Positions 37,057 to 51,946 of a stretch of 64,000 bases of DNA are shown one piece after another (within the stretch, counting starts at the first letter, position 1; each line of letters starts with the position of its first letter). The position numbers and the translations under genes were made by a program. Under the pieces are notes generated by a model. The model saw only the letters and a list, made by a program, of their open reading frames with translations. It had not been told where the DNA came from and did not search any database. Origin of the DNA: Streptomyces sp. NBS 14/10 (GTDB lineage Bacteria > Actinomycetota > Actinomycetes > Streptomycetales > Streptomycetaceae); NCBI RefSeq assembly GCF_002224125.1, contig NZ_NCSM01000010.1:1-64000 (forward strand). Reading direction: 5' to 3'.

Positions 37057-37169
37057 ACAAGCGTTCACCGGTCTCACCCGCCCTGACCTGCGTGTTAAGC
37101 CCGCTTGATGCACTCTGCGGGGCTCCTGGCCCACGTATGGCCCACGAGCCCCGAGGAAGGGCCTACTCG

Positions 37170-38108
37170 TCACCGCTTGCGAGGCTCCATCTGCTCCGGC
37201 GTCGCCACGCAGCGGAACCCGGTGTCATCGTCGTGCATCGTGTCGTTGGCATCGTTGGGGATGGCCGGCACTCCCCGGAACAAAGGGCTCGTGAAGGCGC
37301 TCCCACGGAGTTCGTAGCGACCGGGCGTTGTCGCCGTTGCCAGCCACTCCCACACGTTCCCCACCATGTCGTAGACCCCGTAGGGCGAGACGCCGCTGTG
37401 GTACCGAGAGACGGACGTCGTGCGCTCCACGCCGGTCTCCCGGACATTGCACTTGGCCGCAGTCTTCTGATCTCCCCAAGGGAAAGTACGCCCGGAGGTG
37501 CCGCGCGCCGCTTTCTCCCACTGCTCGGCTATCGGCAGCGACTTGCCCGCCCATGTCGCGTACGCCTGCGCGTCTCGCCAAGTCACGTGCACGACAGGGT
37601 GGTCGTACAGGTCGCGGGGACATCGGCCGTTCTCCCAGTGCTCAGGCACGGCGTGCCGAGTGGCCGCGCAGAACCGCGCGTAATCGGCGTTGGTCGTCGG
37701 GAATGTGTCTATATGGAATTCTTCAACCCATACGGGCTCATCGTCTTCCCCGGACAGGAAGATTCCTTCCGGGACGTGCGCCATGAGTTTCCCGTCGCCG
37801 GGGTGCTTCACGTATTCGCCGCTGCTCGTCTGGTCGCCGTCAGGCTCGATGATGGCATGGGCGGGGATGTCATCCACCGCCAAGATGCCGACGAAGCGCC
37901 CTTGGGCGTCCTTGTCAGCTTTGGCAAGCAACGTGTCTAAGGCGGCTTGGTTCACCATGCGGAGGGAGGCATCTTCGCCGTCCGCCTCCCACCGAGAGAC
38001 GATGCGATCGGATACCCCGAGCTTTTCGGCAAACTCCATAAGGCTCATGCGTACGGCTTCACGCATCGCCTTGACTTCACGTCCGGTCCATTTCGTAACG
38101 AGTGGCAT
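37170..38108 (-). CDS. HTH-SUMF1 fusion protein lacking the FGE cysteines
   Basis: The N-terminus (residues 1-65) is an XRE-like HTH (REVKAMREAVRMSLMEFAEKLGVSDRIVSRWEADG). From about residue 110 a SUMF1/formylglycine-generating-enzyme fold follows (VWVEEFHIDTFPTTNADYARF, HPVVHVTWRDAQAYATWAGKSLP, YDMVGNVWEW, DDDTGFRCVA). The region that holds the copper-binding Cys pair in true FGE reads RGSAFTSPLFRGV with no Cys, so sulfatase activation is unlikely. The C-type-lectin-like fold may instead sense a ligand and set DNA binding. The aminotransferase gene lies 51 bases upstream on the same strand. Confidence 0.8.
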   Translation of the reverse strand: MPLVTKWTGREVKAMREAVRMSLMEFAEKLGVSDRIVSRWEADGEDASLRMVNQAALDTLLAKADKDAQGRFVGILAVDDIPAHAIIEPDGDQTSSGEYVKHPGDGKLMAHVPEGIFLSGEDDEPVWVEEFHIDTFPTTNADYARFCAATRHAVPEHWENGRCPRDLYDHPVVHVTWRDAQAYATWAGKSLPIAEQWEKAARGTSGRTFPWGDQKTAAKCNVRETGVERTTSVSRYHSGVSPYGVYDMVGNVWEWLATATTPGRYELRGSAFTSPLFRGVPAIPNDANDTMHDDDTGFRCVATPEQMEPRKR

Positions 38109-38159
38109 GGGCTACCTCTGTCATGAATTGCCGCCCCACTGAGGGGCGGCGGCGCGCGT

Positions 38160-38945
38160 CTACAGGCGCTCGCCGGGGATACCGGCGTAGGCGTCACGCA
38201 GCGCTGCAAGCACGGGGTGGTCCTGTGGGAACTGCACGTCATCGATCGCACTGACGGAGCGCACGCCGATCGTCACGTTCGTCGCGAATGCAGCAGCCAT
38301 CTTCGGAATGTCGGTGAGCCGCACCGGGGTGGTGATCTGCTTCGGAGCATCGAGGCTCTGGAGCAACAGCATTGTCGTGCCCGGTAGTACGGGAGCGTCC
38401 GGCCAAATGACCGTCCCGTCCTGGTCGACGAAGCCAAGATTCCAAGTGCCGCCCTCGGAAACTCGGCCGTCCGGCTCGATGAACACGGCATCGTCGAATC
38501 CGGCGAGTTGAGCATCACGACGAAGCCGGAGCTGCGGGTGAAGCCCAATGTGCTTCACCTTCGCGTTGTCGCGGGTGAAGGGGAAGGTCTTGGCCGTGAG
38601 GGGCGGAGGCGACAGGGCACCCCCGGGCCGCAGGTTCACCAGGATGTGCGGGTCCTTGGCGTCGCTGGGGCGCCCCATGTCGAGCGCGGGGTCGAAGACG
38701 GTGATGCGGAGGCCGGCGACCCCAGTGATGCCGTCGGCTGCCTTCCGGATGTAGTTCAGGGTCTGCTCGCGGTCCAACTCGACACCGAAGACGATGCGGC
38801 AGTCGCGCACCAAGCGGTCTAGATGGAGCGACAACCCCCGGACACTGCCGTCCTCCATCCGCATTGACGTGAAGTGCCCGTAGTTCGTGAGAGCGAGGCT
38901 CTGGAGGTCTTCGAGGGTGGCGGGTTTCCCGTTGAGTTCGGCCAT
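38160..38945 (-). CDS. Class IV PLP aminotransferase/ADC lyase-like enzyme
   Basis: ATG 38945 gives 261 residues. The family Lys lies in VKHIGLHPQLRLRRDAQLAGFDDAVF, and EPDGRVSEGGTWNLGF carries the conserved Glu and Asn. FATNVTIGVRSVSAID fills the usual C-terminal position. Class IV enzymes transaminate branched-chain or D-amino acids or cleave aminodeoxychorismate; the substrate cannot be told. No ribosome binding site is evident, so translation may be leaderless. It is followed by the HTH-SUMF1 gene and preceded by a GntR gene on the same strand. Confidence 0.75.
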   Translation of the reverse strand: MAELNGKPATLEDLQSLALTNYGHFTSMRMEDGSVRGLSLHLDRLVRDCRIVFGVELDREQTLNYIRKAADGITGVAGLRITVFDPALDMGRPSDAKDPHILVNLRPGGALSPPPLTAKTFPFTRDNAKVKHIGLHPQLRLRRDAQLAGFDDAVFIEPDGRVSEGGTWNLGFVDQDGTVIWPDAPVLPGTTMLLLQSLDAPKQITTPVRLTDIPKMAAAFATNVTIGVRSVSAIDDVQFPQDHPVLAALRDAYAGIPGERL

Positions 38946-39098
38946 GGGGCCAGTCTTGCAGCCCCTCAGGGCCCGCCAACACCCCGGTATGCAGCCAAAG
39001 TTCGGATTAGTTCGGTGTAGGGGCGGCGGGAGTACGTACTCACGGCGCGCTCGCCAGGACACGCTAAGTGCATGACGACGAGCACACCGCGAGAGACG

Positions 39099-39482
39099 CT
39101 AAGCGCCGGACTCCCCCTCCACGGAGCCCACAGCCGCCTCAAGCTGCTTGACGCGTTCGACGAGACCGGCCAGTTCGGTCGACACGCGCGCAACCTCGAC
39201 TTGCAGGTCGTTCAGGCGTTGCGCTGCTTCGCGGGGACCCCGCTCGCCGGGGGCGGTGTCACGGACGTAGGTGCCGCTCCCCGAGACACCTTCCACCAGC
39301 CCCTCATCCCGGAGCTGCGCGTAGGCGTTCTGCACGGTCATCAAGGAAACGCCGAGCTTCTTGGCGTAGGCCCGACCTCCGGGGAGGCGATCCCCAGGAC
39401 CGAACGTCCCTGCGGCGATCTCGTCTCTGATCCTGGCGGCGATCTCGCGGGCGTTGGGCTTCCGCTTCGGCTGTGAGTCCAC
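39099..39482 (-). CDS. GntR-family repressor of AICE-2
   Basis: Residues 10-75 form a GntR winged helix (AREIAARIRDEIAAGTFGPGDRLPG ... VQNAYAQLRDEGLVEGVSGSGTYV). The rest is a coiled coil (LNDLQVEVARVSTELAGLVERVKQLEAAV), as in KorSA-like proteins. Three copies of an AGCGACCTAGGTCGCT-type palindrome lie immediately upstream, so it very likely represses its own gene and the divergent transfer operon. Confidence 0.88.
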   Translation of the reverse strand: MDSQPKRKPNAREIAARIRDEIAAGTFGPGDRLPGGRAYAKKLGVSLMTVQNAYAQLRDEGLVEGVSGSGTYVRDTAPGERGPREAAQRLNDLQVEVARVSTELAGLVERVKQLEAAVGSVEGESGA

Positions 39483-39493
39483 CCCAAAAGCGT

Positions 39494-39593
39494 ACTTGAC
39501 CTAGGTCGTTTGGAATCAGGTCGTGCGGGCTCTTGACGACCCACAAGCGACCTAGGTAGCTTTCACATCAACGGCAAGCGACCTAGGTCGCTT
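39494..39593. promoter_or_regulatory. Three GntR operators around a CCTAGG core
   Basis: ACTTGACCTAGGTCGTTT (39494-39511), AAGCGACCTAGGTAGCTT (39545-39562) and the perfect palindrome AAGCGACCTAGGTCGCTT (39576-39593) are near-identical 18-mers. Centres are 51 and 31 bases apart, close to whole helical turns, which suits cooperative binding. The first lies 12 bases from the GntR start codon. A half-site-like TTTTGACCTGGG follows at about 39606. Confidence 0.85.
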
Positions 39594-40082
39594 CGCTTCC
39601 TGGGTCTTTTGACCTGGGGAGTTGCCTGGTCCCGACGTGGCCCCGAGCGGACCCGGACGGACTCAGCACGACCGCACGAATGCACAGGGCGGGGACGCTG
39701 CAATCCCGCTAAAGGCCAGGGGACAGGGCTTCGGCCCGACTGGCGAGGTGGCCCGGTGACCGCGAGCAACGGCCGGAGGGTGGGGACTCAAGTCCCCCTT
39801 GCAGTGCGTATCCCCTGTTCAGCGGCCTTGAAGGAGTGGCAGTGAGTCAACGAAAGCGATGGGCGCCGCCGTGATCGACCGGCACGGCGGCGCCTGTTCG
39901 TCATCCCCGTTCGCGGCGTCTTCCGCCGACGAACAATCCGGTCCCTCTTCTTCCTGCCATCGCAGCGGCTAGCGCTGCGGCCGGTTGCCTCCTCCGCCCG
40001 TCCGGCTCACGCACTGCGTGGGGCCGTACGGACGGGGTTGAGGGGAGCCGGACATCCCGGCCCCACTCCAAGGAGGACAGAC
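39594..40082. other. Leader region with a 10-codon ORF and hairpins
   Basis: The stretch before the first transfer gene has no full gene. GTG 39842 with AAGGAG upstream opens an 11-codon frame (MSQRKRWAPP, stop 39872-39874). Its stop lies inside a perfect 12-bp stem, GGCGCCGCCGTG (39862-39873) with CACGGCGGCGCC (39883-39894). A nested dyad follows near 39997-40036. The longer frame 39609-39845 lacks support. This resembles an attenuator but could be plain termination. Confidence 0.4.
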
Positions 40083-40280
40083 ATGGCGAAGAACAACCAG
40101 GAAGACGGGACGGTCGTGAACGTGGCCACCCCCGGCAGCGTGGTCGGCATCCAGTGCGGCGGCAGCATCGTCGGCTCCACCGTCACCGTGAACGGCAACA
40201 GCGTCGACCAGTACCCCGGCGGCCGGTGGATCGACATCGAGGACATGGACCGCAGCCTCATCTCCAACCCTGACGACTGA
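40083..40280 (+). CDS. Small hypothetical protein (65 aa)
   Basis: ATG 40083 has a near-perfect AAGGAGG at six bases. The product is polar, with a Gly/Val/Ser/Thr-rich middle (VVNVATPGSVVGIQCGGSIVGSTVTVNG) that could form short beta strands, and an acidic tail. No family is recognised. A hairpin at 40302-40329 follows, so it may be expressed on its own at a high level. Confidence 0.65.
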   Translation: MAKNNQEDGTVVNVATPGSVVGIQCGGSIVGSTVTVNGNSVDQYPGGRWIDIEDMDRSLISNPDD

Positions 40281-40301
40281 CCCATCACCTCAACGGCGCG
40301 C

Positions 40302-40329
40302 GACGCCCGGTGCTGCAACACCGGGCGTC
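40302..40329 (+). terminator. Perfect 11-bp hairpin
   Basis: GACGCCCGGTG (40302-40312) pairs with CACCGGGCGTC (40319-40329) around six bases, between the 65-aa gene and the transfer operon. It probably limits read-through. Confidence 0.8.
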
Positions 40330-40369
40330 GCTGTTCGGGCCGTTCAACCCTTGAGAGGAACCACGACCC

Positions 40370-40639
40370 ATGAAGCACATCGGTGCACTTCAGTCGGTTG
40401 TTACCGCCGACCCGTCCGACCGTGAGCCGACGGTCGCGGAGCTGGACGCGATTGAGCGCGAGATGCCCGTCATCACGGCCGAGGTCGAGTTGCTGGACGC
40501 GTTCATCATGACGCTTGACCGGCCGGTATTCGAGCTGGACGCGCGCCGTATCCGTCGGGCCCGTCGCCGGGTGCTGGCCGCCCGCCGGGAGCTCTCGAAC
40601 CGCGCCACCGTGGTGAGCACGTCGAGGGTGGGCGCGTGA
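40370..40639 (+). CDS. DUF6284-like protein (89 aa)
   Basis: ATG 40370 follows GAGAGGAA. The helical product (EPTVAELDAIEREMPVITAEVELLDAFI ... RRIRRARRRVLAARRELSNRA) fits the short DUF6284 pattern found at the start of many AICE transfer operons; recognition is by memory. The basic C-terminal helix could bind nucleic acid. Its stop overlaps the next start (GTGA). Confidence 0.6.
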   Translation: MKHIGALQSVVTADPSDREPTVAELDAIEREMPVITAEVELLDAFIMTLDRPVFELDARRIRRARRRVLAARRELSNRATVVSTSRVGA

Positions 40640-41091
40640 GCACCCTGGACGCGAGTCTCACCGCCGCGCATGCGGAGGTGAAGGCGGAGATCGCCCGGAC
40701 CGACAACAAGACCAGCCTGATGCTGGCGTTCATCGGTGCTCTGCTGGCCGGTGTGTGGACCGTCGCCAACGGCGCTCACCTTCCGGCCCCCGTCTACGTG
40801 GTCGGCGGCATGGGTGTGGCGCTGCTGGTCACTGCTGCGGCGCTGCTGCTGCGGGCGGTGCGGCCGAACCTGGGCGGTGCCCGTCCGATGGGCTTTCCGC
40901 TGTGGGCGACGCTCACGGCCGAGGAGATCCGCGCGACGCTGGCCGAGGACCGGCGCGAGCAGGACATCGCGAACCTGTCGCGTATCGCGGTCGCCAAGTT
41001 CGCCAACCTGCGCCGCGCGGTCGACCTGACCTGTGCGGGCGGTGTGCTGCTGATCGTGGCCGCCGGTATCGCGGTGGGGGGTGCGCTGTGA
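40636..41091 (+). CDS. Pycsar-effector-like membrane protein (DUF5706/PycTM type)
   Basis: GTG 40636 overlaps the preceding stop. The 151-residue protein starts with a helix (LTAAHAEVKAEIARTDNKTSLMLAFIGALLAGVWTV). It has membrane segments near 30-50 and 55-78 and one at the C-terminus, and the motif LSRIAVAKFANLRRAVDL between them. This is the pattern of the transmembrane effectors of Pycsar phage defence, which open membranes when bound by cyclic CMP or UMP. No pyrimidine cyclase gene is adjacent, so here the domain may have a conjugation or self-defence role. Confidence 0.65.
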   Translation: MSTLDASLTAAHAEVKAEIARTDNKTSLMLAFIGALLAGVWTVANGAHLPAPVYVVGGMGVALLVTAAALLLRAVRPNLGGARPMGFPLWATLTAEEIRATLAEDRREQDIANLSRIAVAKFANLRRAVDLTCAGGVLLIVAAGIAVGGAL

Positions 41092-41423
41092 ACGAGCCCA
41101 CCACATACTCCATCCCGGATCCGCTGCCCGTGGACGTGACTGCGCTGCTGCGGGCCGTGCATGACGCGCTCGATATCCCCGACGCCGACACCATCGAGGA
41201 CGACCGCATCCGCGCCCGGCTGCTCGACCGGCGGGTGTCCGACGCCCGGATCGTCCTCGCGTCGGTCCTGAAGTACGAGGTCCTTGGCGAGGTTGGCGTA
41301 GCGGACGCGGCCAGGCAGTTGCGTGGCTGGACGGCTGAACGCCCCGTGACCTACACACCGTGGGCCGACCGCCGTGACGGCCGGCCCGGTACCGACGACG
41401 CCCCGGAAGGAAGTGCACCGTGA
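41088..41423 (+). CDS. Hypothetical transfer-operon protein (111 aa)
   Basis: GTG 41088 overlaps the previous stop (GTGA). The soluble product is helical in its centre (VDVTALLRAVHDALDIPDADTIEDDRIRARLLDRRVSDARIVLASVL) and ends in a polar tail. No family is recognised. Tight coupling on both sides shows it is a real operon member. Confidence 0.6.
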   Translation: MNEPTTYSIPDPLPVDVTALLRAVHDALDIPDADTIEDDRIRARLLDRRVSDARIVLASVLKYEVLGEVGVADAARQLRGWTAERPVTYTPWADRRDGRPGTDDAPEGSAP

Positions 41424-41638
41424 ACGGAACCACCACGCGGACCGGGGCCGGAGCCCGGTTCCTCAACTACGTCCTGTTCGGATGCCTGCTGCTCATCCTG
41501 GCCCTCCAGGCCCCCGGCGTCACCCTTGGTGTTCTTGCCGGGGTCGGCGCGCTGCTGGTCTGGGTGGCCGCTCAGCCGGTCGTGTGGGCGTTCTTCCTTG
41601 GCCTTGCCGCGCACCGCCTGGGGAGGTGGCGCCCGTGA
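41420..41638 (+). CDS. Small membrane protein (72 aa)
   Basis: The 72-residue product has two hydrophobic segments (FLNYVLFGCLLLILALQAPGV, TLGVLAGVGALLVWVAAQPVVWAFFLGLAA) and a short basic tail. Start and stop overlap the neighbouring genes by four bases. It is probably a spread-type (Spd) membrane protein, on the basis of size and context. Confidence 0.6.
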   Translation: MNGTTTRTGAGARFLNYVLFGCLLLILALQAPGVTLGVLAGVGALLVWVAAQPVVWAFFLGLAAHRLGRWRP

Positions 41639-42798
41639 CTACCGAGCGCCGTACCCAGGGAAGTGGCGTGACGCAGACGCGCAGGGAGTTGACGCGGGCA
41701 CAGAAGGGGGTTCTGACGGCCGCGTTCGTGCCGATGCTCGCCACGGGCGTTGTCGGCGGGATCGGCACGTACAGCAACATCGGTCTCGCCTATGGCACGG
41801 GGACCGCGCTCGGTGCTCTTGGTGCCGGTGAGGGCGCGACGGCGGTGCTCGCCCTGGTGCTGCTGGGGCTGACCATGCTGGGGCAGTCCTCGCCGCGCGT
41901 CGTACGGATCGGGCTGTGGGCGTTGCCCTCCGCCGCCGCCGTCATGGGTGCCATGGCCGCGCCGGACCCGGGGCGGACCGTGATCTACGCCTTGACCCCG
42001 ATGGGCATGTCCGTCTCGGCGGAGGGCATGGCGTTCCTCGCGCGCCGGATCGTCGTCCACACCGACGGCCGCGACGCGGAGAACGAGCGGCGCACTGCCG
42101 ACATCGTTCAGGCCCTCGCCTACCACCGCGCCCGCGCCGCACACCACCCGAGCGATCGGATCAAGTGGTGGTCGGAGCGCAAGTCATGGCGTCTGGCCCG
42201 CAAGGTCGGGGTCGGGGACGCGGCGCTTGGATCGAGGCTGCTGGATGTCCAGCGCGACCGAATCACGGACGGCGCGGATGCCGCGCTCGCCTCGATGTTC
42301 GGCGGCACCGGCCCCGTATCCACCCCGGTCGCGAATGCGGAGGAATCTACCGAGACAATGAGGAATCGGTCTACGGCTGACCTGCGGGAATCGACCCCGG
42401 CGCCGTCGGTCGTGCTCACCCGGTCTTCGGTGCCCGATCCGGTGGGGGTCGACTTCGTGAAGCCGACTCTTCCCCTCAAGCCGGTGCCCGTGATCGCCCC
42501 GGCGGCCGACCCGGTCAAGGCCGATCCTGCGCCGACCGGACGTCGGGCGGTGGCAGCCGCCTCCCCCCGATCCCGTCGGGCGACCGGCCGGGTTCCGGAG
42601 GTGGCACGGTCGCCCCGACCGAAGCGCACGACCGAACAGTTGCTCACTGAGGCCCGCACCGCTACGGCCGACTGGCCCGCCGACCGGATCACGGCGGAGG
42701 GCATCCGCCGCACGGTCCGCACCTCGCCGGCCAACGCGCGGATGCTGCGGGACACGATCCTCGCCGAACGCGCCAACGACGGCGGTAAGGCCGCGTGA
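41635..42798 (+). CDS. Conjugal-transfer membrane protein (387 aa)
   Basis: GTG 41635 overlaps the previous stop. About four membrane helices lie in residues 25-135 (FVPMLATGVVGGIGTYSNIGLAYG, ATAVLALVLLGLTMLG, IGLWALPSAAAVMGAMAA). A long cytosolic region follows with a Pro/Ala-rich linker and a C-terminal helical domain (TEQLLTEARTATADWPADRITAEGIRRTVRTSPANARMLRDTI) that looks like a winged-helix or DNA-binding tail. It resembles spread proteins of AICE operons. The exact role is unknown. Confidence 0.6.
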   Translation: MTTERRTQGSGVTQTRRELTRAQKGVLTAAFVPMLATGVVGGIGTYSNIGLAYGTGTALGALGAGEGATAVLALVLLGLTMLGQSSPRVVRIGLWALPSAAAVMGAMAAPDPGRTVIYALTPMGMSVSAEGMAFLARRIVVHTDGRDAENERRTADIVQALAYHRARAAHHPSDRIKWWSERKSWRLARKVGVGDAALGSRLLDVQRDRITDGADAALASMFGGTGPVSTPVANAEESTETMRNRSTADLRESTPAPSVVLTRSSVPDPVGVDFVKPTLPLKPVPVIAPAADPVKADPAPTGRRAVAAASPRSRRATGRVPEVARSPRPKRTTEQLLTEARTATADWPADRITAEGIRRTVRTSPANARMLRDTILAERANDGGKAA

Positions 42799-43178
42799 AG
42801 CGGCTGACCCTCGCCGACTGCTTCGACCCGACCGGGGAGCGCTTCGGCATCCCCACCTTCCCGTGGCGGTGCGCCCCGGACGACTTGGCCACCCGCCGCC
42901 AACTGCGCAGTCGGGGACTGCGGCCGGGTGGTCAGGATGTCGCGGCGCAGCTCCTGCGCCCGCGTCGTCGGCGGGAACCGCTGACCGCGTACCTGTACCG
43001 GGTCGACCTCGCCCGGCCGGTGCGTCCGATGACCCCGGCGCGGTGGCGTGCGCACGCAGCGATGATGCGCGCCCGCCGCCGCTGCCCCAAGTGCCGTCGG
43101 GACGCCGGATACGTCATCCCGCCCACGCTCGGAACCTGCGTGACCTGCGCCTATCCCGAGGAACAGCGCGCCGCCTGA
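42795..43178 (+). CDS. RRQRL-motif zinc-binding protein (127 aa)
   Basis: The start GTG 42795 overlaps the preceding stop. The product has a basic ATRRQLRSRGLRPGG motif and a Cys4-type zinc site (CPKCRRDAGYVIPPTLGTCVTCAY) at the C-terminus. This matches the RRQRL-motif family seen next to traB in AICEs. It may bind DNA at the transfer locus. Name recognition is by pattern. Confidence 0.65.
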   Translation: MKRLTLADCFDPTGERFGIPTFPWRCAPDDLATRRQLRSRGLRPGGQDVAAQLLRPRRRREPLTAYLYRVDLARPVRPMTPARWRAHAAMMRARRRCPKCRRDAGYVIPPTLGTCVTCAYPEEQRAA

Positions 43179-43262
43179 ACCACCCCGAATCCCGGGTCCG
43201 GCCGCCCGACCTTCCACAGCAAGCCGGCCGGACCCTTCGACTCCCGAAGGAGTAGGTACATC

Positions 43263-45488
43263 GTGACGGAAACCACCGCGTTCCCGCCCCCGAATGAGCC
43301 GGAGGACACCAACGAGCGGACGGCTGACGTGTTGCCGTTCCCGCTGAAGAAAGACACCACCCCTGCCGCTGCCCCCGCCGAGGGTCCGGTGAAGCCGGGG
43401 GAGTGGGAGGCCGAACTTCCCGACTCCGACGACCCGGAGGCCGAGGGGTTGGCCGAGGGTGAGCCGGTTGACCCGGCGCGTGAGGTCTACCCGCCGTCGG
43501 TGGCGGAGTGGATGGAGGCCAAGGACGAGGCGCGCTTGCCGGTGCTGCCGGATTGGGTGAAGCTGCCCGACCAGCGCACGGCCGTGCGCAAGTGGGCGGT
43601 GCGTCACTACTCGGCCGTGGTCGGCTACCACGCCGTGCGCCTGCCGTGCATCTACACCCCGAAGATCCTCATCTACTCGCCCCGCGGGGCGTGGCGCTGG
43701 TCGGCCGCGATCGGCCGGTGGGTCTTCGATGCCGAGGGCAAGCCTCTGCGGCACGCCGCTGTGGCGGCTGAGGATGCGGCGGAGTACCTGAAGCTGTCGC
43801 GGCAGCGCAACGACCGCGTGAGGCTGCGGGGCATCGTGGCCACGATCGCCGCCTTCATCGGGCTGGCCGCCGCGCTGACGCTGTATGTCATGGCGCCGTC
43901 GTGGCTGCTCCTGTTGTCCATCGCCGCTCTGACGACGACGCTGGGAGTGGTGGGGGCGCCGGCCGACCGGCCGCTGATCGACCTGGCCAAGGTGACGTTC
44001 CGCAAGCGGCGGCTGTCCTCGGACATCGTCATCCGGGCACACGAGGTTGCCGGGCTGACCAGCAAGGATCAGACGATCGCTTTCCCGCGCCCGATCGGCC
44101 GGGACGGCGATGGATGGCGGGTCGTGGTGGATCTGCCGTACGGCAAGACGTTCGAGGACGCGATGAAGGCGCATGCGCGTCTCGCGTCCGGTATGGACAT
44201 CGCCCCGACTCAGTTGTTCCTGGACAAGGATGAGACGAGCGGGCGGCGGGTGTCGTACTGGATCGCCGACCGTGACCCGCTCGCCGTGCCGTCGGGCAAG
44301 TCGCCGCTGCTGGGGGCGACGCGGGTGGACTTCTGGAAGCCGTTCCCGTGGGGCGTGGACGAACGCGGCAACCCGGTCATGGCCACGATGCTGTGGCTGT
44401 CGCTGCTGGTCGGCGCCGTACCGCGCCAGGGCAAGACGTTCTCCGCCCGCACGATCGCGCTCGCCGCCGCGCTGGACCCGTACGTCAGGCTGTACGTGTT
44501 CGACGGCAAGGCGTCCCCGGACTGGCGCACGTTCACCAAGGTCGCCCACCGCATCGGGTTCGGCATCGTGCCCAAGCACGGGTTCGACCCGGTTCAGCAC
44601 CTGCTGACGTCGCTGCGCGAGCTGAAGGCGGACGTCGAAGACCGGTACCACCGGCTGTCCGAACTGCCGCTGCACATCTGCCCCGAGGGCAAGCTCACCC
44701 CGGAAATCAGCCGGGACAAGAAGCTGAACATGCCCCTCACGCTGTTCGTGGTGGATGAGGTGCAGGAGTACCTGACCCACCCCGAGCACGGCAAGGAGAT
44801 CCTGTCTCTCCTGGTCTACCTCGCCCGGGTCGCCCCGGCCGTCGGTGTCTCGGTGATGACAGCGACGCAGAAGCCGGACGACAAGGCGTGCCCCTCGGAG
44901 CTGCGTGACCAGCACCAGGCCCGATTCGCCCTGCGCGTCGGCGCCTACCAGGTCTCGGACACCATCCTCGGTGCGGGCTCGTACTCGGAGGGCTTGGACG
45001 CGTCGAAGCTGCTGAAGTCGCACAAGGGCGTGGGGCTGCTCAAGGGCATGTCGGATGACTCCGGCATCGTCCGCACCTACCTGGCCGACGGGCGTGACGC
45101 GGAGCGCATCCTGACCCGCGCCGCCGCGCTGCGCGAGGCCGAGGGCACCCTGTCGGGCGACGCGGCCGGGGACGCCCCGGCCCCCGAGGTGTCCGCCACG
45201 ATCCTCGACGACGTGGCGGCCGTGCTCGGCAAGGGCGAGGCCAAGGTGTGGTCCGAGACCATCGTTGACCGCCTCGCCGACCTGCGCCCCGAGGTCTACC
45301 GCCCGTGGGCGGAGCTGGAGCCCAAGCCCAAGGCCGAAGCGCTCACCGCCGCGCTCAAGCCGTTCGGCATCGGGACGGTTCAGATCAGCCGCCGCATCGA
45401 CGGCGAGCAGGTCAACAAGCGCGGCATCAAGCGCGACGACATCGCCACCGCGATTACGGAGCGCAACAAGAAGAGGGACGCCGGATAG
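43263..45488 (+). CDS. traB: TraB-like FtsK/SpoIIIE conjugal DNA translocase
   Basis: GTG 43263 follows AAGGAG. The acidic N-terminus leads to two membrane helices (about 195-240, IVATIAAFIGLAAALTLYVM and LLLLSIAALTTTLGVVG). The ATPase has Walker A GAVPRQGKT at about residue 383 and Walker B LFVVDEVQ at about 493, then VMTATQKPDD. The C-terminal winged helix (VWSETIVDRLADLRPEVYRPW ... ISRRIDGEQVNKRGIKRDDI) would read 8-bp recognition sequences at the transfer locus. It moves double-stranded DNA into the recipient. At 741 aa it is longer than the AICE-1 TraB. Confidence 0.9.
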   Translation: MTETTAFPPPNEPEDTNERTADVLPFPLKKDTTPAAAPAEGPVKPGEWEAELPDSDDPEAEGLAEGEPVDPAREVYPPSVAEWMEAKDEARLPVLPDWVKLPDQRTAVRKWAVRHYSAVVGYHAVRLPCIYTPKILIYSPRGAWRWSAAIGRWVFDAEGKPLRHAAVAAEDAAEYLKLSRQRNDRVRLRGIVATIAAFIGLAAALTLYVMAPSWLLLLSIAALTTTLGVVGAPADRPLIDLAKVTFRKRRLSSDIVIRAHEVAGLTSKDQTIAFPRPIGRDGDGWRVVVDLPYGKTFEDAMKAHARLASGMDIAPTQLFLDKDETSGRRVSYWIADRDPLAVPSGKSPLLGATRVDFWKPFPWGVDERGNPVMATMLWLSLLVGAVPRQGKTFSARTIALAAALDPYVRLYVFDGKASPDWRTFTKVAHRIGFGIVPKHGFDPVQHLLTSLRELKADVEDRYHRLSELPLHICPEGKLTPEISRDKKLNMPLTLFVVDEVQEYLTHPEHGKEILSLLVYLARVAPAVGVSVMTATQKPDDKACPSELRDQHQARFALRVGAYQVSDTILGAGSYSEGLDASKLLKSHKGVGLLKGMSDDSGIVRTYLADGRDAERILTRAAALREAEGTLSGDAAGDAPAPEVSATILDDVAAVLGKGEAKVWSETIVDRLADLRPEVYRPWAELEPKPKAEALTAALKPFGIGTVQISRRIDGEQVNKRGIKRDDIATAITERNKKRDAG

Positions 45489-45499
45489 GCCCTCACGAG

Positions 45500-45589
45500 C
45501 CGCTACCGGTAGCGGCAGGAGTCGCTACCGGTAGCAACCCCGCTAGCGACCTATACCGCTCCTGATCTGGCCGCTAGCGTCTAGCGGCC
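45500..45589. promoter_or_regulatory. Cluster of palindromes downstream of traB
   Basis: CCGCTACCGGTAGCGG (45500-45515) and GCTACCGGTAGC (45524-45535) share a CTACCGGTAG core with centres 22 bases apart, about two helical turns. GGCCGCTAG-CGT-CTAGCGGCC (45569-45589) follows. The DNA between traB and the next gene is otherwise unusually AT-rich for the window. Candidate roles are a TraB recognition locus, an operator or a terminator. Confidence 0.55.
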
Positions 45590-45630
45590 CACCTGCGGAA
45601 ACCCTTCAAACCACCTCCTGAGAGGCCCTG

Positions 45631-45882
45631 ATGAGCCTTCCCGCCCTCGATACCGCCTTCCTTCTCGTGGTCACGCTCGGTTACAGCATCAAGTGCTGGC
45701 TGAGCCCGTTCGGCAACTGCCGCAAGTGCGACGGCATGGGCCACGACCTCAAGACCGACCGCAAGGGACGCCTCAAGCGCGGCAAGGACTGCCGCCGCTG
45801 CCAGGCCACCGGCAAGCGCATACGCGTCGGCCGCTGGATCTACAACCGCGCCACGCGCACCTACCGCGCCGGCACCCGCTGA
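45631..45882 (+). CDS. Small membrane-anchored zinc-finger-like protein (83 aa)
   Basis: An N-terminal hydrophobic helix (LDTAFLLVVTLGYSIKCWL) precedes a DnaJ-like Cys pattern (CRKCDGMGHD ... CRRCQATGKRIRVG) that could bind zinc. The basic C-terminus suggests contact with nucleic acid. It follows the palindrome cluster after traB. No named family is recognised. Confidence 0.6.
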   Translation: MSLPALDTAFLLVVTLGYSIKCWLSPFGNCRKCDGMGHDLKTDRKGRLKRGKDCRRCQATGKRIRVGRWIYNRATRTYRAGTR

Positions 45883-45899
45883 CCACCCCGGGAGAACCC

Positions 45900-46094
45900 G
45901 TGATCATCACCATCCCCCTCGTACTGCTGCTCGCCGGCGGCCTCGCCCTGCTCCTGCGCTTCAAGGCCCTCGGTGCCGGTGCGGCCGTAGTCGCCGCGCT
46001 CTTCGGCTTCTACCTCGCCGACACCGACGCCAGCGACACCGTCAACCAACTCGTCACCGCCGTCACCAGCGCACTCGCCGGAAACGACCAGTAG
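45900..46094 (+). CDS. Small membrane protein (64 aa)
   Basis: GTG 45900 lies after GGGAGAA. The product is almost all hydrophobic helix (IITIPLVLLLAGGLALLL, GAGAAVVAALFGFYLA) with a short polar tail. It is typical of small spread-operon membrane proteins. Family unknown. Confidence 0.6.
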   Translation: MIITIPLVLLLAGGLALLLRFKALGAGAAVVAALFGFYLADTDASDTVNQLVTAVTSALAGNDQ

Positions 46095-46108
46095 AAGGGA
46101 GACCGGAC

Positions 46109-46582
46109 GTGCACGAACCCACCACACCCCACCACTGGCCCGCCCCGGCCGGGCACGACGCGGCGGCAATGGAACTCCACCACCCCACGCCCGTCATGCC
46201 CGCGCACACGGCACCGCTCGTGCCCATGCAGCCGGGCGCCATACCGGCGGTGGCGAGCGTCGTCATGCCCGACGGCCGAGTCATCACCGGCTACGCCATC
46301 GAGCCCGCCAAGCCCGCCCCGGTCGCGGCCAAGCCGGCCGTCTCGCGGACGGCGGTGAACGTCGCGCTCGGCGGCATGGGGTTCCTCGCCGTGTGCGGCG
46401 GGCTCGTGCTGCTCACCACGTTCATCGCGGCCCTCGCCGCGCTCATCCACCAACTCATCATCCTCGCCGCCGTCATCTTCGGCGGCTGGATCGCCATCCA
46501 GGTCTTCGGCCACCGCTCCGGCGGCGGCACGACGGTCAACATCCGCAAGGCCGTCATCAAGCGCAACCACTTCCACACCTAG
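46109..46582 (+). CDS. DUF6251-like membrane protein (157 aa)
   Basis: GTG 46109 has AAGGGAG upstream. A His/Pro-rich N-terminus and PDGRVITGYAIEPAKP precede two membrane helices (VALGGMGFLAVCGGLVLLTTFIAALAALI and LIILAAVIFGGWIAIQVFG) and a basic tail. It resembles the DUF6251-type proteins of AICE operons, judged from memory. A role in DNA spreading is inferred from position. Confidence 0.6.
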   Translation: MHEPTTPHHWPAPAGHDAAAMELHHPTPVMPAHTAPLVPMQPGAIPAVASVVMPDGRVITGYAIEPAKPAPVAAKPAVSRTAVNVALGGMGFLAVCGGLVLLTTFIAALAALIHQLIILAAVIFGGWIAIQVFGHRSGGGTTVNIRKAVIKRNHFHT

Positions 46583-46594
46583 CCGGGAGATCTC

Positions 46595-46876
46595 ATGGCA
46601 ACGCGTCTGGTCACCTGCTACATCGCCGTGTGCGACCTGTGCGGCGCCACCACCGACGCCGACGGCTTCACCCCTCACCTCGACAGCCCGGAAGAGGCCG
46701 TCCGGTACATCACCGAAACCGCCTTCGGCGACGACGCATGGACCCTCACCCCGGACGGCCGACTCGTCTGCGACACCGTCACCGACACGGCCCACGAAAC
46801 CGTCCACGAGCAGGCCGGCAAGCGCATCCCCACCCCGGGCCCGGACGCCATGTGCGTCACCTTCCCCACCACCTGA
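46595..46876 (+). CDS. Hypothetical protein with CxxC motif (93 aa)
   Basis: ATG 46595 follows CGGGAGA. The product has CDLCGATTDADG near its N-terminus and one further Cys, and is otherwise acidic. No family is recognised. It sits in a compact series of small operon genes. Confidence 0.55.
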   Translation: MATRLVTCYIAVCDLCGATTDADGFTPHLDSPEEAVRYITETAFGDDAWTLTPDGRLVCDTVTDTAHETVHEQAGKRIPTPGPDAMCVTFPTT

Positions 46877-46901
46877 ACCGCTACCCGAGAGGAGCCCCGG
46901 C

Positions 46902-47159
46902 ATGAAGACCCCACGCCCCCGGCTGCGTATCCGTCGCACCACCTGGCCCCGCCACGCGCTCATCCTCGCCGAAACCCCCCGGCCCGACTGCCCCCGCTGC
47001 GAAGGCGACGGCGGCACGGCACACGACTACGGCGACTACGAAACCGGCGAATACGCGGGCACCGACTGGGATCCCTGCATCTGCTGGAACGAAAACCACC
47101 GCTGGACCCTGCTCCCCCTCCCGCGCCTCCCCCGCTACAGCAACGAGCCCCCGTTCTAG
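46902..47159 (+). CDS. Hypothetical zinc-ribbon-like protein (85 aa)
   Basis: ATG 46902 follows GAGAGGAG. A basic N-terminus precedes CPRCEGDGG ... CIC, a possible metal site split by acidic residues. The function is not recognised. It is the last small gene before the prim-pol gene. Confidence 0.55.
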   Translation: MKTPRPRLRIRRTTWPRHALILAETPRPDCPRCEGDGGTAHDYGDYETGEYAGTDWDPCICWNENHRWTLLPLPRLPRYSNEPPF

Positions 47160-47242
47160 ACACGGCTGGGGCGGCCGTCTCTCGCCAAAGTCACGGCCGC
47201 CCCGGTCTCCCAGCACCGTCAAGAGAACTGGAGACATCCAGC

Positions 47243-48127
47243 ATGACACCTGAATGCAAGACCCCGCCCACGCGCGCCACGACTCCAGCCAGGGACCACC
47301 TACGAACCGCGCTGGAACTGGCCGCGTCCGGTGTACCGCCGCTTCCCCTGCGGGCCGGAAAGGTCCCATTCGGGAACTGCCGCCGCTGCGCGGACAACGC
47401 GTGCGGCGGTCGGCCGAACATGAAGAGCCCCGGGCCGTGCAACTGCCCGCGTCCCTGCCATGCGTGGGCTGCCGCGACCACCGACCTGGACGTCATCAAC
47501 TCCCATATCTGGCGCCGGGCGTGGCTTCGCGCAAGCGCGGTCGCCTATCACCCGGGCGGGGCGGGGCTGACGGTCGTGGACCTGGACAACGCCGAAGCGA
47601 TCGTGTGGGCACGCAAGAACCTGCCGACCACGCAGACCGTGCCCACCACCCGGGGTGAGCACTGGCTCTACCTCGGTCGGATGCAGTCCGCGAACGCGGT
47701 CCGGCCCGGCGTGGACATCAAGTCCACCATGGCCTACGCACGCTGGCTCGGGTTCGGCACCGGCACCATGACCGCGCTGCCGGATGCCGTGCGCGCGCTG
47801 GCCGTGAGCAAGCCCTCCCCGGCCCGGCCCGCACCGCAGGCCATCACCGTGCCCGCACGGGCCGGAGAAGGGGCGTGCCCTCACCGCACGCCCACCTATC
47901 TGGACCGTGGCATCGCCATGGCCGAGCAACGCATCACCGAGGCCACCAGCGGCGTGCACAGCACCGTCTACCGCACCTTCCTGGCTGTGCTCTCCACACA
48001 TGGCCGGTGCGGCTGCCTCACCGAGGACCACATCGCGCGGCTGTTCACCGCCGCGCAGACCAAGGGCGAATCCCCCCGGCACTGCACCGACGCATGGACC
48101 AACGCCCGCGCCAAGTTGGGACTGTGA
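47243..48127 (+). CDS. Bifunctional DNA primase/polymerase (prim-pol)
   Basis: ATG 47243 has AACTGGAG upstream. The prim-pol pattern is visible (LELAASGVPPLPLRAGKVPF, an inserted Cys-rich loop CRRCADNACGG ... CNCPRPCHAW, then GLTVVDLDN with catalytic acidic residues, and HWLYLG). The C-terminal 80 residues form a helical domain. It works with the next gene as the AICE replication initiator pair. Confidence 0.85.
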   Translation: MTPECKTPPTRATTPARDHLRTALELAASGVPPLPLRAGKVPFGNCRRCADNACGGRPNMKSPGPCNCPRPCHAWAAATTDLDVINSHIWRRAWLRASAVAYHPGGAGLTVVDLDNAEAIVWARKNLPTTQTVPTTRGEHWLYLGRMQSANAVRPGVDIKSTMAYARWLGFGTGTMTALPDAVRALAVSKPSPARPAPQAITVPARAGEGACPHRTPTYLDRGIAMAEQRITEATSGVHSTVYRTFLAVLSTHGRCGCLTEDHIARLFTAAQTKGESPRHCTDAWTNARAKLGL

Positions 48128-48129
48128 CC

Positions 48130-49605
48130 ATGTCCGACGACGAGAAGAACCCCGCCCGCGAGGTCATCACCAACTACGCACAGGCGCACTTCCGGTACTT
48201 CCGCACCGCCGACGGCACCGTGTACGCGCAGAGGAACAGCCACCCCGTGGCTCGGCCGATCCGCTCACAGGGCACCACGGGCAGCCACCGGCAGGAACTC
48301 ATGGTGGGTCTCTTCCGCGACGGGGTGGGTGTGTTCAACGGCACCGCCATGAAGGAGGCGCTGGACCTGATCGAGGCGCTCGCGCTGACGGAGGCCGTGC
48401 AGCCCGTGCACATCCGCGTCGCCCCCGGATTCGACGGGGCGACGTGGCTGGACCTCGGGCGCAGCGACGGGCAGTCCGTGCGCATCCACCCCACCGGATG
48501 GGACATCCGCACCCCGGACCCGCAGGAAGTCTGCTGGCGGCGTACCCAGCTCACGGGGGAACTGCCTCTGCCGGCGAAGGACACCAACGGCAAGGGCATC
48601 GATCTGCTGATGCGACTGTGCAACTTCGCCAACGCGGAGACCGAGTGCCTGGCCATCGCGTGGCTCATCGGCTGCCTGGGTCCGACCGTGCCCGTCCCGG
48701 CCCCGTTCCTCACCGGCCCGCAAGGCGCGGGCAAGTCCACCGGTGGGCGGATGCTCGTGCGGATCATCGAGGGCATGACCGGGGACCTGCGCCGGGCGCC
48801 GAAGGATGAGGAGAACCTGATCACGGCGGTGGCAGCCGGTTGGGTCACTGCCCTGGACAACCTCTCCCACATGACCCCGGAGCTGTCCGATGCGATGTGC
48901 TGCATCGTCACCGGAGCCGAGAACGTCAAGCGCGCCCTGTTCACCGACGGGGACGTCTTCCGCATCGGCTACCGCCGCCCCCTTCTCCTGACAGGCATCG
49001 ACGTGGGCGTGATCCGGCCCGACCTCGCCGAACGGCTGTTGCCCCTGCGTCTGGAACGCCCCCGCGTCCGGCGCACCGAAGCAGAACTGTGGTCCGACTT
49101 CGCAGAGGTCTTGCCCGTCATCCTCGGCTCTCTCCTCGACCTCACCGTGCAGGTGCGCGCGGCTGAGGCAGACATCCCGACCGACCTGCGCATGGCCGAC
49201 TTCGCGCACCTGTGCGCGCAGCTCGACGCGGCCACCGGTCTGGGAGCGCTCGCCGCCTACCGGGCAAGCCTGGACGACCTCAACGACGACGTCATCGAGG
49301 GCGATCTCCTCGCGCAGACCGTGCTCAAGCACGCCGCCGGCATCGACCCGGGCACCGAGCAGCGGATGACGTCCGCCGAATGGCTGCACTGCCTCACGGG
49401 CCTCTACAGCGGTGAGGAGTGCCGTCCCCTTCCCAAAGGGTGGCCGACTACCGGCAAGGTGCTCTCAGACCGCCTCAAGCGGCTTCAGCCCACCCTCGCG
49501 GCCCGGGGCGTCCTCATCGACTGGGGACGCACCAAGACATCCCGCTACATCGAGATCGCACGGCCATCCGCGCCGCCCCCGCCCGAGCAGGAAGCGGCCT
49601 TCTGA
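48130..49605 (+). CDS. Replication ATPase/helicase partner of prim-pol
   Basis: ATG 48130 starts two bases after the prim-pol stop. The 491-residue protein has Walker A GPQGAGKST at about 195 and the pattern of phage-type replicative ATPases (TALDNLSHMTPELSDAMCCIVTG, FRIGYRRPLLLTGID). The C-terminus carries a winged-helix-like part. The TGCGTCACC iteron array lies 170 bases downstream, so this protein or prim-pol probably binds it and opens the origin. Confidence 0.8.
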   Translation: MSDDEKNPAREVITNYAQAHFRYFRTADGTVYAQRNSHPVARPIRSQGTTGSHRQELMVGLFRDGVGVFNGTAMKEALDLIEALALTEAVQPVHIRVAPGFDGATWLDLGRSDGQSVRIHPTGWDIRTPDPQEVCWRRTQLTGELPLPAKDTNGKGIDLLMRLCNFANAETECLAIAWLIGCLGPTVPVPAPFLTGPQGAGKSTGGRMLVRIIEGMTGDLRRAPKDEENLITAVAAGWVTALDNLSHMTPELSDAMCCIVTGAENVKRALFTDGDVFRIGYRRPLLLTGIDVGVIRPDLAERLLPLRLERPRVRRTEAELWSDFAEVLPVILGSLLDLTVQVRAAEADIPTDLRMADFAHLCAQLDAATGLGALAAYRASLDDLNDDVIEGDLLAQTVLKHAAGIDPGTEQRMTSAEWLHCLTGLYSGEECRPLPKGWPTTGKVLSDRLKRLQPTLAARGVLIDWGRTKTSRYIEIARPSAPPPPEQEAAF

Positions 49606-49778
49606 CCGCGCGCACCATGACGCACAAGCAAGAGGAGCACCCGCGCACGCGTGCTCCTCTTGCTGTTCGGCGGCGGCGCCGCCCTGCGATGGTCGCGCCG
49701 CGAAGCGGCTCCTTCTTCACGCTCTGAGCCGCACAACAACAGACACCACCCCCTCCCTTGTCCGAAGTAAGAGGACGC

Positions 49779-49988
49779 TGCGTCACCTGCGTCACCCACA
49801 CCCCGTAGACGGCACGTGACCTGCCGAAACAGCGGTGACGCAGACGGCCGATTCTTGCGTCACCCCGCGTCACCCGCGTCACCCGGTGACGAAGACCTGC
49901 GTCACCGGGTGACGCACCCCCACTCCTCTGCGTCACCCTAAACCCGCAGGTCAGAGCCGCGAATGACGCAGATGACGCGGGTGACGCA
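49779..49988. repeat. Iteron array: candidate replication origin of AICE-2
   Basis: Eight exact copies of TGCGTCACC or its complement occur at 49779, 49788, 49834(-), 49856, 49898, 49908(-), 49929 and 49980(-). Close variants (CGCGTCACC at 49866 and 49875, ATGACGCA at about 49963) lie between them, all within 210 bases. Repeated 9-mers beside replication genes are the hallmark of an iteron-controlled origin. Confidence 0.85.
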
Positions 49989-50055
49989 GAAATCCGAACC
50001 TCGGACACACGCGGGTCCCAGAAGTCCCCGCCATCAGAGCGAAGGAGTCGAACGC

Positions 50056-50244
50056 GTGGCACGCGACGAGAAGATCAAGCTCCCCGACGTCCTCAAAGAG
50101 ATCAAGATGAGCCGCGCCGCCTTCTACCGCATGCGCGCACGCGGCCAGGCACCACGTATCCAGAAACTCCCCAACGGCCAACTCCGCGTCAGCCGCGCCG
50201 ACCTCGATGCCTGGTGGGCGTCCTGCGAGCAGCGTGCCGCGTAA
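50056..50244 (+). CDS. xis: Excisionase of AICE-2
   Basis: GTG 50056 has AAGGAG at eight bases. The 62-residue winged HTH (VLKEIKMSRAAFYRMRARGQAPRIQKLPNGQLRVSRADLDAWWA) is the usual Xis type. It lies between the iteron array and int, separated from int by a strong terminator. Confidence 0.85.
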   Translation: MARDEKIKLPDVLKEIKMSRAAFYRMRARGQAPRIQKLPNGQLRVSRADLDAWWASCEQRAA

Positions 50245-50261
50245 GTTCGATCGCTTCAACA

Positions 50262-50296
50262 GGGGCCCGCATTCATCGCGGGCCCCTTTTTCTTTT
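50262..50296 (+). terminator. Intrinsic terminator between xis and int
   Basis: GGGGCCCGC (50262-50270) pairs with GCGGGCCCC (50278-50286) around seven bases and is followed by TTTTTCTTTT. A T-run of this quality is rare in this DNA, so termination should be efficient. Confidence 0.88.
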
Positions 50297-50308
50297 ACCT
50301 GGAGAGAC

Positions 50309-51724: not shown

Positions 51725-51802
51725 CTCTGGCCCACAGATGGCCCATACGTACTGGTCAGAACTGGGATACGGGCGAGAAAGGGTGAGACAACCTGAACGC
51801 GA

Positions 51803-51833
51803 AAGGGGTGCTCCGGAGACCGGGGCACCCCTT
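51803..51833. terminator. Hairpin between int and tRNA-Ser
   Basis: AAGGGGTGC-T-CCGG pairs with CCGG-G-GCACCCCTT around three bases. It lies after int and downstream of the tRNA on the opposite strand, so it can end transcripts from both sides. Confidence 0.75.
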
Positions 51834-51852
51834 CTGACCAGCTAGTTCGCTG

Positions 51853-51918
51853 ACCTGGGCGGAGGCTGAGGGATTTGAACCCTCGGTGACATCGCTGCCA
51901 CGACGGTTTTCAAGACCG
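51853..51918. repeat. attR of AICE-2
   Basis: These 66 bases are identical to attL at 36991-37056. The match ends at base 51918 in the anticodon stem of tRNA-Ser, the edge of the recombined core. Confidence 0.92.
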
Positions 51919-51946
51919 TTCCCTTAGGCCGCTCGGGCAAGCCTCC
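51860..51946 (-). tRNA. tRNA-Ser(TGA)
   Basis: The minus strand reads GGAGGCT ... AGCCTCC with discriminator G. It has anticodon arm ACGGTCTTGAAAACCGT (anticodon TGA) and a long variable arm. Length is 87 bases. It is the integration target of AICE-2. Confidence 0.95.

Follow-up and report, generated by a model that had tools for sequence, protein, structure and literature searches.

A class IV PLP enzyme gene and an HTH-SUMF1 gene form a conserved cassette with a predicted operator on an integrative element of Streptomyces

The stretch analysed here (the window, 64,000 nucleotides of contig NZ_NCSM01000010.1 from Streptomyces sp. NBS 14/10) carries an actinomycete integrative and conjugative element (AICE) with two neighbouring genes at one of its ends. 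The first, AT4, encodes a class IV pyridoxal phosphate (PLP) enzyme; the second encodes a protein that joins a helix-turn-helix (HTH) domain to a domain of the SUMF1 or formylglycine-generating enzyme (FGE) fold. We call the latter HTH-SUMF1, a candidate regulator of its own two-gene cassette. Loci and genomes are referred to by L and G numbers.

The two genes and the conservation of the cassette

The genes and their parts are as follows.

37170..38108, minus strand: HTH-SUMF1 gene, 312 aa, XRE-type HTH plus FGE/SUMF1-fold domain (open reading frame, Pfam, structure model)
37920..38084, minus strand: HTH part, residues 9-63, with helices 9-19, 23-30, 34-46 and 51-63 (HTH_3 match, model secondary structure)
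37986..38012, minus strand: stretch of the recognition helix, SDRIVSRWE (residues 33-41), with the strongest covariation to operator bases 3-4 at columns 33 and 36-39
37197..37814, minus strand: SUMF1/FGE-fold domain, residues 99-304, without copper cysteines
38160..38945, minus strand: AT4, 261 aa with Lys131 and Glu164, of a class IV PLP enzyme family (PRK09266/NF006734; Pfam, NCBIfam)

Pfam finds an FGE-sulfatase domain (E 1.3e-34) and an HTH_3 domain (E 3.5e-5; 24.2 bits against a cut-off of 23) in HTH-SUMF1, the latter being the DNA-binding domain that defines the XRE family. An earlier reading of these genes from the letters alone (the sequence-only reading) had described the fusion and proposed a structure prediction as a check; the model has a mean predicted local distance difference test score (pLDDT) of 92 when built from a more diverse alignment (76 in a first model), and in a structural search its fold is that of FGE, EgtB, PvdO and CalU17, with matches covering residues 97-306. 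The first 69 residues weakly match the transcriptional regulator 9sf2 by sequence (E 0.0011).

Two well-known activities of this fold were considered for HTH-SUMF1 and rejected. The protein has the domain and fold of a true FGE but lacks the two C-terminal copper-binding cysteines, as the sequence-only reading had noticed: residues 221-299 of the window protein contain no Cys, and the 45-sequence consensus over the segment where we take FGE to have its copper cysteines (C336 and C341 of human FGE are named in PDB titles) is KGSAFTSPFFR. From its sequence a true FGE enzyme is thus unlikely. Other cysteines, at 249 and 256, are present in relatives. An EgtB-type sulfoxide synthase has an N-terminal DinB-like domain with an iron-binding His ahead of its FGE domain; Pfam gives only HTH and FGE-sulfatase here, with no DinB-like domain, and the EgtB model of NCBIfam scores 67 against a cut-off of 360. 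Many members of the family bear the database name “SUMF1/EgtB/PvdO family nonheme iron enzyme”, which would mislead if the protein is a regulator.

Across 57 representatives, H157, W158, N285, A287, M291, D293 and D295 are conserved at 0.98-1.00 (N285 at 1.00; A287, M291, D293, D295 and also T296 at 0.98), with D286 (0.72) and D294 (0.60) as less conserved C-terminal positions. Positions 34, 36 and 39 of the recognition helix are conserved at 0.30-0.39, and other HTH positions are equally variable.

AT4 precedes HTH-SUMF1 on the same strand, as had been claimed, and contains a whole Aminotran_4 domain (E 9.2e-33) with the Lys and Glu of a class IV PLP enzyme. Lys131, presumably catalytic, and Glu164, which we take to belong to the PLP site, are kept in at least 97% of 75 cassettes and at least 95% of 39 stand-alone copies. 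The NCBIfam model that AT4 matches above cut-off is named “hypothetical protein”, and matches in PDB are weak (best E 4.6e-7). Since nearly all relatives align from the ATG at 38943-38945, the gene most likely starts there rather than at the GTG at 39062.

We compared 96 loci, of which 85 were unique and 77 of these intact (at least 280 residues of HTH-SUMF1). AT4 was found on the same strand, 8-76 bp upstream of HTH-SUMF1, in 75 of the 77; the exceptions were L148 (a protein of 440 residues, with AT4 395 bp away) and L248 (no AT4). A full AT4 was present in 74 of the 77, the AT4 of L123 being a 34-residue remnant. With AT4 beside 75 of the 77 copies, the pairing is not due to chance, which answers the co-occurrence check that the sequence-only reading had put forward. 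Broken or partial copies of HTH-SUMF1 with fewer than 280 residues occur at L041/L124, L042, L142, L143, L147, L149/L250, L150 and L239.

HTH-SUMF1 was detected in 37 of 392 Streptomyces genomes (E at most 1e-54, own genome and broken copies counted), in 26 of 150 genomes from the genus to which G440 belongs (E 1e-60), in 14 of 200 genomes of the family (E 1e-60, own genome counted) and in 2 of 396 genomes of the phylum (E 1e-40, own genome counted). The genus of G440 is taken to be Nocardia, locus L213 being identical to the Nocardia farcinica record L198. Twelve plasmid records match with at least 80% query coverage, and the pair is also present on one Arthrobacter contig (L040). The cassette is found in AICEs, plasmids and large chromosomal contigs of Streptomyces, its relatives, Nocardia and Arthrobacter. 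Among phage records, eight match the SUMF1 part only (query residues 109 and up) and none covers more than 80% of the query; viral contigs gave three distant loci. Flanking genes mostly differ from locus to locus, with homologs of the backbone of the window AICE (Tra, Prim-Pol or Rep) near 9 of 44 cassette loci. One short family, f2, recurs at 18 of the 44; an f2-like place is annotated as ATP-binding protein in one plasmid record. Since AT4 and HTH-SUMF1 remain linked throughout actinobacteria although their surroundings mostly differ, sequence comparison marks them as one portable two-gene unit. With HTH-SUMF1 as a regulator, the cassette would be a portable regulator-enzyme pair of natural origin, present on AICEs, plasmids and chromosomal contigs.

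Both genes are under purifying selection in the AICE clade (14 copies, 91 pairs): the median ratio of nonsynonymous to synonymous substitution rates (dN/dS) is 0.066 for HTH-SUMF1 and 0.098 for AT4, and by part 0.056 for the HTH, 0.053 for the SUMF1 part and 0.12 for the linker (the last over 75 pairs). The SUMF1 part is thus no unselected remnant, a possibility raised along with the first description. SUMF1 and AT4 distances correlate across 75 cassettes (r = 0.88, relatedness uncorrected). We found no paper on the AT4-HTH-SUMF1 pair in the open-access literature, outside which most subscription journals lie; under the terms searched, the pair is unmentioned in the accessible parts of the AICE papers PMC8584621, PMC3218068 and PMC9513070.

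AT4 also occurs by itself. It is present in 79 of 392 Streptomyces genomes (E at most 1e-45) with 84 matches, 35 of which adjoin an HTH-SUMF1 match and 49 do not. We examined 39 of these 49 stand-alone regions, leaving out ten weaker ones; a fortieth, L194, was the odd cassette L148 again and was set aside. None of the 39 contains an HTH-SUMF1 or GntR homolog. On a tree of AT4 from 56 cassette representatives with full AT4 and the 39 stand-alone copies, the state with or without HTH-SUMF1 changes 18 times, at least 15 of them on well-supported branches (18 changes, 12 well supported, on a smaller tree of 50 representatives). We read most changes as losses of HTH-SUMF1. The enzyme without the regulator is common and the regulator without the enzyme rare, as expected of a regulator serving the enzyme. 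One stand-alone copy (L174, 4969-5742) lies sister to a cassette and has a perfect CCGAACTTTCACCGAACTT repeat without HTH-SUMF1; the remaining repeat and the sister position suggest that it is probably a recent loss.

The predicted operator and the recognition helix

The region upstream of AT4 contains a tandem direct repeat and promoter-like boxes, listed here.

38999..39015, minus strand: predicted HTH-SUMF1 operator, a tandem direct repeat (CCGAACT-AAT-CCGAACT) located at -70 to -54 relative to the AT4 start codon
38974..38979, minus strand: putative -35-like TTGGCG; GTGTTGGC conserved in the 14-copy AICE clade
38952..38957, minus strand: putative -10-like AAGACT of a leaderless-type promoter, 6 nt before the AT4 ATG; conserved in three promoter groups compared

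This operator of the cassette, tandem heptamers before AT4, is new in this analysis. Heptamers 10-11 bp apart at about -70 were accepted in 68 of 75 cassettes, using a scorer and a check by eye, with two sites set by hand. When 8-letter words 10 or 11 bp apart were compared between -90 and -35, the best match was 8 in 12 of the 75, 7 in 42, 6 in 13 and 5 in 8; its mean was 6.76 of 8 in the first 50 cassettes, against 4.68 +/- 0.12 in shuffled sequences, whereas the promoters of stand-alone AT4 (n=38) gave 5.21 against 5.14 +/- 0.14. Matches of at least 7 were seen in 37 of 56 cassette representatives and 2 of 38 stand-alone promoters, and matches of at least 6 in 49 of 56 and 10 of 38. The difference follows the tree: among 15 independent supported pairs differing in HTH-SUMF1, drawn from all 56 full-AT4 representatives including cassettes without a site, a repeat match of at least 7 went, on average, the same way in 7.7 pairs and the opposite way in 0 (median p 0.008), and one of at least 6 in 9.6 and 1.1 (median p 0.012). 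Limited to cassettes with a recognised site, a biased choice, the test gave 6.6 of 12 pairs the same way and none opposite. Some Nocardia promoters appear by eye to have three or four copies (L222, L233).

All three promoter groups share the conserved -10-like box, 6-7 nt upstream of the ATG, and the two Streptomyces groups also have a -35-like stretch. Because of this spacing of the -10-like box, the AT4 transcript may be leaderless, with the repeats upstream of its promoter. The perfect operator motif occurs once in the window and once in the 12.1-Mb host genome, in both cases at the cassette itself; six further one-mismatch matches in the genome compare with one match of a reversed control. 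A palindrome, GAGTACGTACTC, lies at 39030-39041, 15 bp upstream of the direct repeats, and is conserved in the AICE clade, with variants in L037, L120 and L122. This inverted repeat was considered as the HTH-SUMF1 operator and set aside, being absent from the two other promoter groups compared.

The half-sites vary by clade, and their two copies tend to change together. We compared this variation with that of the protein in 50 loci of less than 90% identity, after dropping 18 near copies. By adjusted mutual information, the five columns out of 312 most associated with bases 3-4 of the proximal half-site are R39, S33, I36, V37 and S38, each of which lies within the recognition helix (34-46 in the model) or at its beginning. 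The leading three columns for distal bases 2-4 are S33, I36 and R39, and S33 and S38 lead for base 3 alone. A control scan covered 86 promoter offsets in 49 loci, 83 of them variable enough to score. The ten best columns included 5, 4, 3 and 3 helix columns at offsets -9, -8, +2 and +3, which are bases 3 and 4 of both half-sites, and three each at -20 and -18, positions compatible with a third copy of the repeat; all other offsets had 0-2.

A rule can be stated for residue 39. Loci with Lys or Arg there have C at base 3 or 4 in 49 of 49 cases, and C is absent from these bases in 16 of 19 loci with another residue. On a tree of the SUMF1 part alone, six independent supported pairs differ at residue 39, the base going the same way in 5.5 and the opposite way in 0. 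Lys and Arg commonly contact the G paired with a C, and the association of a basic residue 39 with a C in the site is as such a contact would give. The combinations seen are these.

GAACTT half-site: SDR..SKW or SDR..SRW helices
GAAGTT half-site: SQRQLVTW and STRQLVNW helices
GAAGTT in one copy, GCAGTT in the other: SERTLSTW helix
GACGTT half-site: NPR helices, in Streptomyces (distal copy often GACTT) and again in Nocardia
Exceptions to GACGTT with NPR in Nocardia: L200 (GACATT and GCAACT) and L212 (GACGTT and GGCCTT)
GTCCT half-site: PERRVEKW helix in L199
GCAATT half-site: SVRIVSTW helix

In one close pair, L214 has the helix TERQVSNW with GAATTT and GAATTC, and L222 has SERMVSKW with GAACTT twice. 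Two distinct intact cassettes coexist in each of three Nocardia genomes (G792, G868 and G872; loci L215, L218, L229 and L236-L238). Within every one of these genomes the cassettes have different helices, and G792, with both sites readable, has different sites as well, which fits insulation of co-resident copies, in these few cases. If HTH-SUMF1 does bind there, the covariation amounts to a code, open to testing, by which an XRE-type helix reads direct repeats. Binding of 11-bp repeats by PhoP- or SARP-like regulators suggests by analogy a host regulator acting on the site, a candidate disfavoured by the covariation with the helix of HTH-SUMF1.

Interpretation and alternatives

We propose that HTH-SUMF1 is a dedicated regulator of its own cassette, because half-site bases 3-4 covary most with residues 33 and 36-39, and give the whole statement a probability of roughly 0.6. 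It would bind the tandem repeats before AT4 and thereby control its own unit; the SUMF1 domain would bind a small molecule, a substrate or product of AT4, and binding would turn the AT4-HTH-SUMF1 operon up. Our confidence in binding to the repeats taken alone is higher than in the whole, since a helix-site link recurring in independent lineages is hard to get otherwise. That the SUMF1 domain senses a small molecule is likely, the FGE fold and the near-invariant C-terminal residues being kept while the copper cysteines are absent. For the ligand, a metabolite of AT4 is an economical guess by analogy with XRE-cupin units (PMC7901475) and MocR regulators (PMC5320631), as far as the accessible parts of these papers describe them. 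We favour activation as the sign, given that the repeats are placed clear of the -35-like and -10-like boxes, on the upstream side of the predicted leaderless-type promoter. The sequence-only reading had likewise suggested a small-molecule circuit, and its idea that the enzyme may produce or consume the signal sensed by HTH-SUMF1 is plausible; covariation ties its HTH to the DNA before AT4, while the promoters of the element as targets find no counterpart in an operator that occurs once in the window and whose only perfect match in the genome is the cassette's own.

Several observations weigh against this proposal. No clear site was recognised, partly by eye, in 7 of the 75 cassettes (L040 from Arthrobacter, L123, L128, L227, L236, L238 and L241). 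For base 4 alone A14 ranks first and R39 second, base 2 has little link to the helix, and the non-helix columns Y99, A14 and V12 rank close behind the top five; at offset -2, too, the mean helix signal is high (0.307), as is the background there. L232, L234 and L235 break the rule for residue 39, and L232, which shares the helix TERQVSNW with L214, has GAACTT. The tree test of the helix-site link is modest (p 0.03-0.06, median p 0.06), and the link of residue 33 with base 3 rests on two well-supported pairs. As to the sign, the position of the operator alone leaves activation and repression undecided, and the characterised XRE-cupin regulators are repressors in the accessible part of PMC7901475.

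The latter point leads to the best of the alternatives, which we nevertheless think unlikely: HTH-SUMF1 would be a local autorepressor that works like the XRE-cupin regulators of Pseudomonas, keeping the AT4 operon shut until a metabolite releases it. Those regulators (ErfA, PsdR, PauR and kin) reportedly inhibit neighbouring metabolic genes and are exchanged as units (PMC7901475, accessible part), and the local logic is similar here. The repeats, however, lie upstream of the conserved -35-like and -10-like boxes and not over them, and run head to tail, while XRE motifs are usually palindromic according to what is accessible of PMC12565409.

Rather improbable is a second alternative, in which the SUMF1 domain is a new kind of enzyme working together with AT4 in one pathway, the role of the HTH being limited to coupling the enzyme's dose to that pathway. 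The fold shared with FGE, EgtB, PvdO and CalU17 and the seven residues conserved at 0.98-1.00 speak for it, but the copper cysteines and, by Pfam, the DinB-like N-terminal domain of EgtB are absent, and the conserved residues would equally suit a binding pocket.

A toxin-antitoxin or defence pair that stabilises the element, with AT4 as toxic enzyme and HTH-SUMF1 as antitoxin and autoregulator, would agree with a two-gene unit with an XRE HTH on plasmids and AICEs. We consider it very improbable, because AT4 is often found without HTH-SUMF1 and rarely the reverse: all 39 stand-alone regions examined lack it, and the at least 15 supported changes of state on the tree are not easily allowed by a free toxin. 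A search with PADLOC also gave weak matches only (HTH_VI, RmrA and CasR; best E 4e-4).

Slightly less probable still is control of the AICE itself, its excision or transfer, which the location of the cassette at the end of the element, beside the attachment site and the GntR gene, could suggest. Control of transfer is unsupported, the perfect operator match being unique in the host genome and at the cassette's own promoter; the cassette is also found on unrelated plasmids and in genomes without this backbone, and the palindromes of the GntR gene are separate from its operator. Finally, the broken or partial copies could suggest a degraded, functionless remnant; for the window copy this is refuted, within the limits of sequence evidence, by a dN/dS of 0.066, 77 unique intact copies and coordinated operator changes.

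The proposed regulator resembles several known systems, compared here with the accessible parts of the papers cited. With XRE-cupin regulators it shares an XRE HTH with an enzyme-type fold as sensor, and one or two mostly local targets exchanged as gene units (PMC7901475). Unlike these repressors, it has an FGE-sulfatase domain instead of a cupin, a partner nearly always from one class IV PLP family, and a tandem direct repeat as its site. MocR regulators (GntR HTH plus aminotransferase fold) have in common with it an HTH fused to an enzyme-derived fold, frequent direct-repeat operators and control of amino-group metabolism (PMC5320631); in contrast, HTH-SUMF1 has an HTH of another family and its sensor would be the FGE fold, the PLP fold being the sensor of MocR, while the PLP protein here is a separate gene product with conserved catalytic-type residues. 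It differs from FGE, SUMF2, PvdO, EgtB and CalU17 (the PF03781 fold) in the HTH in front, the absent copper cysteines and the family-typical N285, A287, M291, D293, D295 and T296. The same fold is found in the FGS/CLec domains of conflict systems and diversity-generating retroelements, proposed as effector or ligand/antigen sensor (PMC7159879, PMC10907252); the binding region of those is hypervariable, whereas in HTH-SUMF1 the key C-terminal positions are near-invariant and the positions of the DNA-reading helix vary.

More tentatively, and with somewhat more doubt than belief, we suggest that HTH-SUMF1 is the founding member of a class of one-component regulators: a dead FGE fold would read a metabolite of the partner PLP enzyme and drive the pair through head-to-tail heptamer arrays. 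The sensor pocket would be frozen while helix and sites drift together, so that several copies could share one cell without cross-talk. The cassette would then be a self-insulating and transferable metabolic circuit whose protein-DNA code can be read. If HTH-SUMF1 is such a regulator, a fold known for sulfatase activation and ergothioneine synthesis would serve a transcription factor as its sensor, and knowing the ligand would give a lead on what the enzymes of this uncharacterised class IV PLP family act upon.

The GntR gene and the carrier element

Further features surround the cassette.

39099..39482, minus strand: short GntR-type regulator, 127 aa (GntR E 2e-17, Pfam), a close companion in the AICE clade only
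39499..39588, no strand: three palindromes with core ACCTAGGT, at 39499, 39550 and 39581, presumed GntR operators
37057..51918, no strand: AICE with the cassette at one end (repeated 3' half of tRNA-Ser, Pfam)

The GntR gene and its three palindromes are as the sequence-only reading had them, though not its placing of the cassette under a GntR switch. The ACCTAGGT core palindromes occur nowhere else in the window. Of 14 AICE-clade copies examined, 13 have them in the 1.5 kb that precede AT4, where they stand only before the GntR gene, and none of the 14 has one at AT4. A GntR homolog of at least 79% identity accompanies only 13 of 75 cassettes, all of the AICE clade, with weaker homologs in L037 (44%), L123 and L217 (about 31% each). 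GntR was therefore rejected as the switch of AT4, which has its own predicted promoter and operator, and we propose that it is a separate switch of the AICE clade. It is not a MocR regulator, since GntR HTH and aminotransferase fold are on separate genes and the protein ends about 54 residues past the HTH match. Nor is it of the KorSA type: such GntR/HutC repressors have a C-terminal UTRA ligand domain, for which the 127-aa protein gives no Pfam match.

The AICE assignment, also made from the sequence alone, is borne out by an integrase together with a tRNA attachment site. The 3' half of tRNA-Ser is repeated, ending at 37056 and 51918, with the intact tRNA-Ser (51858-51946) at the end opposite the cassette. 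The integrase (50207-51724) matches with 25.6 bits, slightly under the cut-off of 27.1; Prim-Pol and HTH_17 genes were found by Pfam, and Tra-like and Rep-like genes were assigned by look, without a Pfam match. The Tra-like protein (43263-45488, plus strand) has a P-loop-like stretch, GAVPRQGKT, and no Pfam match at 0.01. At 36999-37084 ARAGORN predicts a tRNA-Ser in which the displaced 3' half of the attachment site is joined to a foreign 5' half. Just outside the AICE, a 135-aa protein (36311-36718, plus strand) has by look a signal-peptide-like start, and no Pfam match at 0.01. Within the AICE, an open reading frame at 40636-41091 (plus strand) has a Pycsar effector membrane domain (PF18967, E 6e-17), and a 64% relative of it lies at a similar place in L115.

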